Of a stretch of 64,000 bases of DNA, positions 9,174-54,267 are shown piece after piece; position 1 is the stretch's first letter, and each line of letters begins with the position of its first letter. The stretch comes from Methanoregula sp. Its GTDB lineage: Archaea > Halobacteriota > Methanomicrobia > Methanomicrobiales > Methanospirillaceae. Below the pieces are notes generated by a model, which did not search any database, was not told the origin of the DNA, and saw only the letters and a program-made list of their open reading frames with translations. The stretch lies in contig NZ_JAQTQD010000004.1 in NCBI RefSeq assembly GCF_028712425.1, positions 96,925 to 160,924 of the forward strand, in the 5' to 3' direction. Position numbers and translations under genes: made by a program.

Positions 9174-9365
9174 AGGAGAAGGTCAACGACCTTCTCCTGC
9201 CGCAGGTCTGACGACCTGTGGCATTCTACAACCTCCCTACAGTCGGTCCCCAGTGGGGGAGTCCGAATGGTTCATCAGGACCATGAGGAAGGAGAAGAAC
9301 CCGAAGGATTCTTCGAGGGCGAGAAGATGCCGCGCATCTTCTCGTCTCGCAGTCCGATGACTGCG
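9174..9365. repeat. Two paired-hairpin modules plus a single hairpin (variable-stem repeat family)
   Basis: Three structures lie in the 794-base gap after the synthetase. Module one: arms AGGAGAAGGTC (9174-9184) and its exact complement (9188-9198) around loop AAC, then CAGGTC (9203-9208), loop TGAC and GACCTG (9213-9218). A lone hairpin at 9294-9314 has GAAGAA/TTCTTC ends. Module two: arms CGAGAAGATGC (9320-9330) and complement (9334-9344) around CGC, then CGCAGTC (9348-9354), loop CGAT and GACTGCG (9359-9365). The arms differ between modules but remain complementary, and the first hairpins share GA(G)AAG/CTTCTC ends. The rest of the gap (9020-9170, 9370-9640) shows only a short AT-rich stretch and no gene. 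Confidence 0.75.
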
Positions 9366-9640
9366 AAGACAGCCCAAGGCCGCAAGCCCCCTTGACCCCC
9401 CCGTTTCATTTTTTTTAGCTCGCATATGGTAAAGTTCCACGGGGCGAGGGTCGACAGACCCCGAGCGCCCGTGGCTCCATCCCAAACTAACACAATCCCA
9501 CATAGGTTTTCAACAGAACCGAGAAATCTTATCGAATGTATCTCGCTATGACAAATTTTTTTCCACCAGAGATGCATCATCAGATGTAATGACAACGTAT
9601 TACCCCTCTAAAATGAGGAAATATCTGGCATAGGGATGAA

Positions 9641-27610: not shown

Positions 27611-28009
27611 CTACAGGATCTTTTTCCCGGGCTCCGGGTCCGGCTTGACAAGATACACGCCCGTGATCTTCACGAGCACCGCGGACTTTGGTGAAAACTT
27701 CGGAAAACTTTCTTTCATCCAGGCAACATTCTCCCGGAAGATCTCATCGTTTGTGTGGACCGAGACCGTCCCCTTGATCTGGAACCCGCCTTTCTCCCCC
27801 CACCACGAAAGGGCGATCTCCGGGTTCTGCTTCAGGTTCGAAAGCGTCTTGTTGAAGTACTGGTCCGAGATGAGCAGCGTCGCGTCATCGCGGACTTTGA
27901 ACGCCGCGATCGGGACAACATTGGGGGTGCCGGACTTCGACGCCGTTGCGAGGAACGCGAGCTTCGCGGCCTGCAGGGATTGTTTGATCTCTGGTGTCTG
28001 GGTGACTAT
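27611..28009 (-). CDS. Pyridoxamine 5'-phosphate oxidase-like (PPOX) FMN protein with apparent ATA start
   Basis: A 132-codon minus-strand frame ends at TAG 27611-27613 and encodes a typical archaeal PPOX split barrel: TPEIKQSLQAAKLAFLATAS, GTPNVVPIAAFKVRDDATLL, ISDQYFNKTLSNLKQNPEIA, then ALSWWGEKGGFQIKGTV. Homology-like content begins at once, but an in-frame TGA lies three codons upstream and no ATG, GTG or TTG occurs before the conserved part. An ATA at 28007-28009 has GGTGA six bases before it, exactly where a start is expected. Either ATA is used, or the start has mutated and the gene is dying. It probably binds FMN or F420. Confidence 0.8.
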   Translation of the reverse strand: MVTQTPEIKQSLQAAKLAFLATASKSGTPNVVPIAAFKVRDDATLLISDQYFNKTLSNLKQNPEIALSWWGEKGGFQIKGTVSVHTNDEIFRENVAWMKESFPKFSPKSAVLVKITGVYLVKPDPEPGKKIL

Positions 28010-28134
28010 GATGATTCACCAACATATTTTTACCCGCAGTTATATTATAACTATTGGTTAGTTAATAACTGTGGGTTGGAAATGTGGGGAATCATGACTG
28101 CAATTCATCGTTACAATAAGGTTTTATCAACGTC

Positions 28135-28177
28135 GAAGAGCCTTTGGCTCTTCTCCTCGTCGGGGTTTGATAACCCC
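28135..28177. repeat. Paired-hairpin module
   Basis: The first hairpin is GAAGAGCC (28135-28142), loop TTT and GGCTCTTC (28146-28153). After an eight-base spacer the second is GGGGTT (28162-28167), loop TGAT and AACCCC (28172-28177). The GAAGA/TCTTC ends and the TGAT loop match the modules near 9.2, 35.5 and 54.1 kb, but the arms are unique. Flanking sequence 28010-28130 has no gene. Confidence 0.7.
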
Positions 28178-28320
28178 TCCGATCCGAAAACGGCTATAGA
28201 CGTGGTCCGGCAGCGTTTGGCAGGATGGATTGGCCTGGAACCCTTACCGGGAAAAAGAGGCTGTTAAAACGTGGCTAATATTTACCTCATCCCTCCGACG
28301 TAAAATTTGGGAAAATGAGT

Positions 28321-28354
28321 GAATTATTCCCTCATTTTGGAGAATTATTCCCTC
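28321..28354. repeat. Short direct repeat GAATTATTCCCTC
   Basis: The 13-base word occurs at 28321-28333 and 28342-28354, a 21-base step of two helical turns. The first copy is also within an AAAATGAG...CTCATTTT palindrome. A protein-binding site is possible; no gene starts nearby. Confidence 0.5.
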
Positions 28355-28427
28355 TGGATTGGTAACTGAAGGGAAACGGAGCCCGTAGAGGGCCCGGATT
28401 TGCGCAGGTGTCTATGATAGGTGCAGG

Positions 28428-28728
28428 CCGGAGCAGAGGTCCGGGAATTCTTCGATGTGGGACTGGCTATAAAGCCAGGAGCAGAAGAAGGATCCGCAGG
28501 ATCCTTTGACATGGGACTGGCTATAAAGTCAGGAGCAGAAGAAGGATCCGCAGGATCCTTTGACATGGGACTGGCTATAAAGCCAGGAGCAGAAGAAGGA
28601 TCCGCAGGATCCTTTGACATGGGACTGGCTATAAAGCCAGGAGCAGAAGAAGGATCCGCAGGATCCTTTGACATGGGACTGGCTATAAAGCCAGGAGCAG
28701 AAAAAGGATCCGCAGGATCCTTTGACGG
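28428..28728. repeat. 54-bp tandem array, five copies plus a degenerate half copy
   Basis: Units begin at 28459, 28513, 28567, 28621 and 28675, each 54 bases, with only two or three single-base differences between them. Every unit has two perfect hairpins: CTGGCT-ATAA-AGCCAG and AAGGATCC-GCA-GGATCCTT. A diverged part-unit lies at 28428-28458. Because 54 is divisible by three, several frames stay open, including an 18-residue peptide repeat on the plus strand (MGLAIKPGAEEGSAGSFD), but no frame has a ribosome site or a credible protein outside the array. The regular spacing without unique spacers rules out CRISPR. Confidence 0.9.
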
Positions 28729-28729
28729 A

Positions 28730-29160
28730 GAAATTCATTCTTCCGTCGGTAAGGTCCTGCCCAAAACCCCCTTCCGGTTCGTTTCGCGTGCTTATGTCCA
28801 GAAAAAACAGCGATCCTTTGTACCAGAGCGACTATATTGACATTTTTCCGGGCGCATTACGACCTCTGTCAGGGAATTAGACGATAAATTTCAGCTATTT
28901 CAAAAATGGTGTACCGTAATTCGCGAAAAAGTACGATCCTCTAAAAGTCGGTTTTTCAAAATGAGCCCGGATTCGAAAACGGGGCGTTTTACAGGGAGAT
29001 TGGTTTTGAGCGATTTAGCTCTCGGTTGGGAGGGGGTATTACGATGGAGTGGAGGACTCCCTGAATCAGGCCCCCTCGCGGGGCGTCGAATCCCTGGATA
29101 CAGGATGGATGCTGGAACGTAATCCTGGTGTTGTATTCGCGAGTCTGGATGTGTATAGGA
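28730..29160. other. Intergenic stretch without recognisable genes
   Basis: About 430 bases with short palindromes only, such as GAGCGATTTAGCTC and GGAGGACTCC. Reading frames on both strands are short and lack ribosome sites. Nothing else can be supported. Confidence 0.5.
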
Positions 29161-53736: not shown

Positions 53737-53789
53737 TTCCCGGATAACCGTCCTTTGGGAAAAAGTTCAGGAGAAATCCTCATTCAAAT

Positions 53790-54175
53790 ATGGGGGCTGA
53801 TGCCCCCATACCCCCGGTTGCGATGAACGGCCGCCAAATTCGAAGGCTGATGCCATCTCCAGGTAATCCTCGCTGATGCGACGATCACCCCCCGAAGGGC
53901 GAGTCGAAGGTATCACTTCTCCACAGCCTGCGACTGTCCCCGCGGCGGCATCAATTACCTCTTCGAATCGATGCAGTTTTTCCTATGCGGGTATTACCGA
54001 GGCAACTCCTGCACCCCCGCCCTGGGGGGTGTCGAACCTCTTCAGAAGTGAGACATGAGAAGAACCTGCAAGGTTCTTCGAGTCAGGGGAAGTTCGAAGA
54101 TTTCCCAACGGGAAATCTTCTCATCCTCCAGGTCTGACGACCTGTCGGAGGCGCAAGGGGGGCGATAATTACCCG
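53790..54175. repeat. Long composite repeat region with five hairpins
   Basis: It fills most of the 530-base gap after the MFS gene. Seen are ATGGGGGC-TGAT-GCCCCCAT (53790-53809), GGC-TGAT-GCC (53845-53854), TCGC-TGAT-GCGA (53870-53881), GAAGAACCT-GCA-AGGTTCTTC (54059-54079), GAAGATTTCCC-AAC-GGGAAATCTTC (54096-54120) and CAGGTC-TGAC-GACCTG (54129-54144). The last two form a module like that at 9174-9218, sharing the second hairpin exactly. Other blocks match 35416-35625, and GCGGCGGC(A)TCAATTACC matches the 9.6/42.4 kb element on the other strand. No gene is present. Confidence 0.8.
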
Positions 54176-54267
54176 AAGACAGAATTCTTCAGAAAAGAAA
54201 AAACAGCCCTCCGTTCTCTTGAATCAATAGATTCATCAGGCTTCAGGGAAACATTCGTCATGAGAAA

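Follow-up and report, generated by a model that had tools for sequence, protein, structure and literature searches.

The tandem array in the window, the 64,000-nucleotide stretch of Methanoregula sp. DNA analysed here, very probably grew head to tail from a single copy of a dispersed, non-coding double-hairpin module, and its unit belongs to a family of such modules that includes the elements at 54030-54149. The full reading, i.e. an expanded dispersed module that is itself a small, selfish, mobile-like palindromic repeat, seems to us likely. Architecture, dispersal, uneven copy number, recurrent tandem growth and a one-copy orthologous site are observed, and from these we infer, with a modest preference over a functional role, that the modules are selfish mobile DNA.

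TRF applied to the window returns 28458-28726 with a period of 54, 5.0 copies and 98% match, in agreement with an earlier note that had described five near-identical 54-bp units; the interval given there, 28428-28728, does contain the array but is some 30 bp too wide on its left edge (Table 1). The units differ pairwise by 0-3 bases (units 1, 3 and 4 share one sequence, unit 2 is one base off and unit 5 two) and, being distinguishable, are not a plain assembly duplicate. Each carries the hairpins CTGGCT[ATAA]AGCCAG and AAGGATCC[GCA]GGATCCTT, with loops in square brackets. Two perfect hairpins per unit had been claimed, and both are indeed present; in unit 2 a C to T change turns one pair of the first hairpin into G.T, while units 1, 3, 4 and 5 have this hairpin in perfect form. 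The GAAG..CTTC frame and GCA loop that the unit was said to have in common with the hairpin at 54059 are likewise found in both. A unit folds into two hairpins with 9 nt of single strand between them, with z about -4.6 for a single unit, and the five units together give z of -11.2 (plus strand) and -8.4 (minus strand) relative to dinucleotide shuffles. The source assembly, a 2.67-Mb draft of 56 contigs, contains the array at one place only, and CAGGAGCAGAAGAAGG was rejected as a dispersed word of this genome, its matches at 2-3 mismatches outside the array being about as many as in the reversed control. A CRISPR array was discarded because the whole 54-bp unit is repeated with no unique spacers, and a phage origin because the phage collection gave no match. 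A sixth, diverged half-unit adjoining the array occurs in M. formicica too, and may be the remnant of an older module.

Table 1. Coordinates of the array, of module copies and repeats in the window, and of further arrays (positions are those of the window unless a genome is named; loops in square brackets).
Feature	Location	Strand	Evidence or remarks
Tandem array, 5 head-to-tail 54-bp double-hairpin modules	28458..28726	- (module sense)	TRF, model R2, fold z
Array units	28458-28511, 28512-28565, 28566-28619, 28620-28673, 28674-28726	-	model R2, 31-42 bits each
Diverged half-unit adjoining array, GGCCGGAGCAG..GAATTCTTCGATG	28421..28457	-	sequence, alignment, inference
Single module copy, GTC-GAAGAGCC[ttt]GGCTCTTC-tcctcgtc-GGGGTT[tgat]AACCCC-TCCGA	28132..28182	+	R2 52.3 bits, E 1.6e-12
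Module copy, GAAGATTTCCC[aac]GGGAAATCTTC-tcatcctc-CAGGTC[tgac]GACCTG-TCGGA	54093..54149	+	R2 64.5 bits
Module copy containing the hairpin at 54059	54030..54082	-	R2 50.5 bits
Module copy	9175..9223	+	R2 37.8 bits
Module copy	9263..9317	-	R2 54.3 bits
Module copy	9320..9369	+	R2 28.5 bits
Element A, dispersed intergenic repeat left of array	28289..28409	+	
Element B, ~250-bp intergenic repeat, dispersed, directly adjoining array on its right	28728..29002	+	
48-bp module array	source genome C18:34925		counterpart in M. formicica also 48 bp
79-bp array, related single hairpin	source genome C18:85779		
60-bp module arrays	source genome C19:69457 and C19:69779		
Module array, 59 bp x 5.1	Methanoregula PD_MW2_B		
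Module array, 49 bp x 4.3	G049, another family of the order		

In the minus-strand sense of the array, the module consensus reads TC-GAAG-stem-loop-stem-CTTC, followed by the 8-nt pyrimidine linker TCNNCCTC, a second hairpin, whose loop is often TGAT, and TCGG; no other part of the module is as constant as the linker CTTCTYNNSCTC. Detailed scans covered, in stretches, 400 kb of M. formicica and 461 kb of the source genome (G000). In M. formicica they counted 10 double hairpins with a GAAG..CTTC foot, where shuffled sequence had 0, and in the source genome 21, where it had 1; a few places are counted on both strands. Both sides of the stem had changed in 11 of 15 pairs counted over 27 modules, a figure that alone proves little, these modules having been preselected for stems. 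This circularity is avoided by two further tests. When sites were picked solely by the 12-nt linker CTTCTYNNSCTC, independently of the stems, hairpin 1 was present at 28 of 29 distinct intergenic sites (0.1 with shuffled flanks) and both hairpins at 19 of 29 (0.0 with shuffled flanks), against 1 of 29 for linker matches inside called genes. Model R2, trained on 18 modules with neither the array nor the copy at 28132 nor the orthologous unit of M. formicica among them, recovers all five array units (E 1e-9 to 7e-7) as well as the orthologous unit (E 9e-11), and it is because this model finds both the array and the 54030-54149 elements that the unit is assigned to the family.

The stems of the module at 28132 differ from those of the array, and M. 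formicica has other sequence at that place. In two other copies of element B, a double hairpin built like the array unit has been inserted. Element B itself is present in well over ten copies across the source genome and M. formicica, with a core, TAATTCGCGAAAAAGTGCGA..GGTTTTTCAAAATG, that is better conserved than its surroundings; a c-di-GMP-I hit in it (20 bits against a gathering score of 65.9, E 0.14) was taken as chance. Further left, at 27645-28005 on the minus strand, lies a frame without an ATG, GTG or TTG start in the window that resembles the M. formicica gene MVQLTGEIKESLQAAKLAFLATASKSG.., which seems to encode a protein of the pyridoxamine 5'-phosphate oxidase type.

Of the 39 Methanoregula genomes, seven are module-rich as judged by matches to model R1, namely the source genome (at least 147), M. 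formicica SMSP (G033, at least 142), G061 (at least 150), G014 (86), G019 (78), G002 (66) and G029 (56), and the remaining 32 have 0-11 matches. G000, G033, G019 and G002 form one clade (support 100/99) in an mcrA tree built without G061 and G029; G014 lies outside this main clade, a position that may be due to transfer or to a binning error. Weaker relatives of the module are patchy across Methanomicrobiales, where at least 68 of 231 genomes and at least 12 of 40 genera have one or more matches at E 1e-4, counts that run low owing to the stricter filters of the order-wide scan. A literature search on Methanoregula and intergenic repeats found no description of these elements, and the family appears to be undescribed; it is unusual for a small dispersed repeat to have stems that vary yet remain paired and, next to them, a linker that stays constant.

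The orthologous region of M. formicica SMSP is 85-91% identical and holds exactly one unit, so that copy number has changed after the split of the two species. This unit stands 4-5 bases from those of the array, more than the 0-3 that separate the array units from each other; the recent origin or homogenisation that the earlier note had read from their near identity is thus supported, as is its suggestion of a module family in tandem expansion, for which the R2 matches at the array and at 54030-54149 speak together with the one-unit orthologue. Growth from one unit to five, with homogenisation, in the lineage of the window would be the simplest reading of these sequences; no outgroup carrying the array locus was found, and the direction rests on the similarity within the array. 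The same comparison bears on whether the array might instead be a repeat-bearing gene for a small protein, given that 54 bp is 18 codons and that open frames (109 and 139 aa) run through it on both strands. In M. formicica, however, a TGA breaks the plus-strand frame and the minus-strand frame loses its ATG start, Pfam gives no match, and the 49- and 59-bp units of relatives are not multiples of three. Accordingly, this candidate was dropped as extremely improbable, and the possibility that a coding gene spans the array, which the earlier note had itself named as adverse to its account, finds no support.

Tandem growth of modules is recurrent: in the DNA stretches examined, all intergenic arrays with a period of at least 40 bp and at least 3 copies are made of hairpin modules. 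Their stems differ from one array to the next, so each array grew locally; some contain runs of N, which leaves their true copy numbers uncertain. Arrays of 49-bp modules, with TTCG loops and the same linker in the form CTTCTTCTGCTC or CTTCTCCTGCTC, are also seen in two genomes from another family of the order (L105 938-1132 and L104 1-239), and G000:C19:55705-56269 (L125) is an array with a period of ~227 bp that contains several modules in both orientations and adjoins a run of N. Near-identical, evenly spaced palindromic units might suggest a protein-binding DNA array, the alternative named in the earlier note, such as an architectural or partition-like site. Against this, arrays elsewhere keep the architecture and not the stem sequence, so that a sequence-reading protein would see different sites in each; the most constant part is moreover the linker CTTCTYNNSCTC, and the M. 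formicica orthologue is one unit, and we consider a binding array improbable.

Clusters of modules are intergenic in 35 of 39 cases. By the gene calls made for this analysis, their neighbours are convergent in 11, divergent in 10 and co-directional in 18, near the share of intergenic DNA of each kind, and modules are found in both orientations; a terminator or promoter role was rejected on this lack of positional bias. Where the flanking genes are syntenic in both species, most clusters are present in only one. M. formicica cleanly lacks two module-bearing cassettes, one of 434 bp at 53766-54199 of the window and one of 780 bp (G000:C18:85483-86262); the latter, which contains two modules and the 79-bp array, has TTTTAATTAT direct repeats on both sides, and another cassette shows only an A-rich overlap. 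No common ends were found in a search of such with/without cassettes. Other repeats have copies with and copies without a single module inside them, and the target duplications of single modules are weak (CGG or none). At one site common to both species, and hence older, the stems are eroded in both, a single case that fits decay rather than selection.

These observations also weigh on the possibility that the modules are transcribed as structured RNA, acting in mRNA stability or attenuation or as a small RNA with repeated protein-binding sites, of which the array would be a multi-site version. Strong RNA folding, the constancy of the linker and of the TGAT loop, and the pairing kept while stem sequence varies (partly by construction in the 27-module count, independently so at the linker-picked sites) all speak for such a role. 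Nevertheless, the modules show no preference among convergent, divergent and co-directional settings and lie in both orientations, turn over fast between sister species, and number zero to few in most congeners; Rfam, in addition, has no match at gathering score, by which a known structured RNA was set aside. We therefore regard the RNA reading as unlikely, whilst noting that selection for function could also account for the conserved linker, the TGAT loop and the perfect stems.

Under the favoured reading as selfish DNA, the module would be a small palindromic element spread at the DNA level by an enzyme, and would probably be recognised by its structure, because the stems vary while the linker and feet stay. 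Its hairpins may promote replication slippage or unequal recombination, through which a single copy could grow into a homogeneous array. Y1_Tnp (PF01797) is absent from all seven module-rich genomes (G000, G033, G061, G014, G019, G002 and G029), and RVT_1 likewise has no match in any of them, which removes two obvious engines and led us to reject mobilisation by reverse transcriptase. Movement of a REP/REPIN by a RAYT (Y1 transposase) would suit short, extragenic, palindromic repeats that are dispersed and also clustered in tandem; however, PF01797 is missing from the module-rich genomes while five module-poor genomes have one, and the stems are not conserved in sequence, so that this very unlikely reading is already contradicted. 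More tentatively, and with limited confidence, we propose a new archaeal miniature mobile DNA that is read via its hairpin structure and constant single-stranded linker, not its stem sequence, depends for its movement on some enzyme other than a Y1 transposase or reverse transcriptase, and can amplify locally into arrays. The closed genome of the cultured methanogen M. formicica SMSP contains at least 142 module copies. A cultured archaeon could serve for studying both how the modules spread and how they grow in tandem.

REPINs are small extragenic palindromic repeats present in many copies, some in tandem (PMC3116915, which also names small dispersed repeats, SDR). The modules resemble them in being short and palindromic, with 35 of 39 clusters intergenic and 56 to 150+ copies, but the module-rich genomes have no RAYT, and the modules have variable stems, not conserved inverted pairs, in two unequal hairpins in direct order. 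The SDR of cyanobacteria (Elhai et al. 2008) are reportedly very small, some being inserted into other repeats; they belong to another lineage and would differ from the modules in sequence. Prokaryotic MITEs are non-autonomous dispersed elements (PMC10969869); for the modules, neither terminal inverted repeats spanning the element nor a parent transposon, sought as Y1 and RT, were identified. By architecture only, the nearest analogue is the double-hairpin elements (DHE) of Allomyces mitochondria, together with the repetitive hairpin-forming elements (RHE) of mitochondria in sponges (PMC2800124, citing Paquin et al. 2000), which are described there as short, hairpin-forming and intergenic, with copy numbers that differ in close relatives and, for Allomyces, without typical flanking duplications. 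Like these, the modules have two adjacent hairpins in one short element and differ in presence or absence between close relatives. Unlike them, the modules reside in an archaeal chromosome, where no sequence relationship would be expected and the comparison is one of analogy, and they possess a constant 8-nt linker, a GAAG..CTTC foot and repeated head-to-tail growth into arrays. We therefore report the module family as a member of neither the DHE, to which the analogy is one of architecture, nor the REPINs, from which enzyme and stem conservation set it apart.
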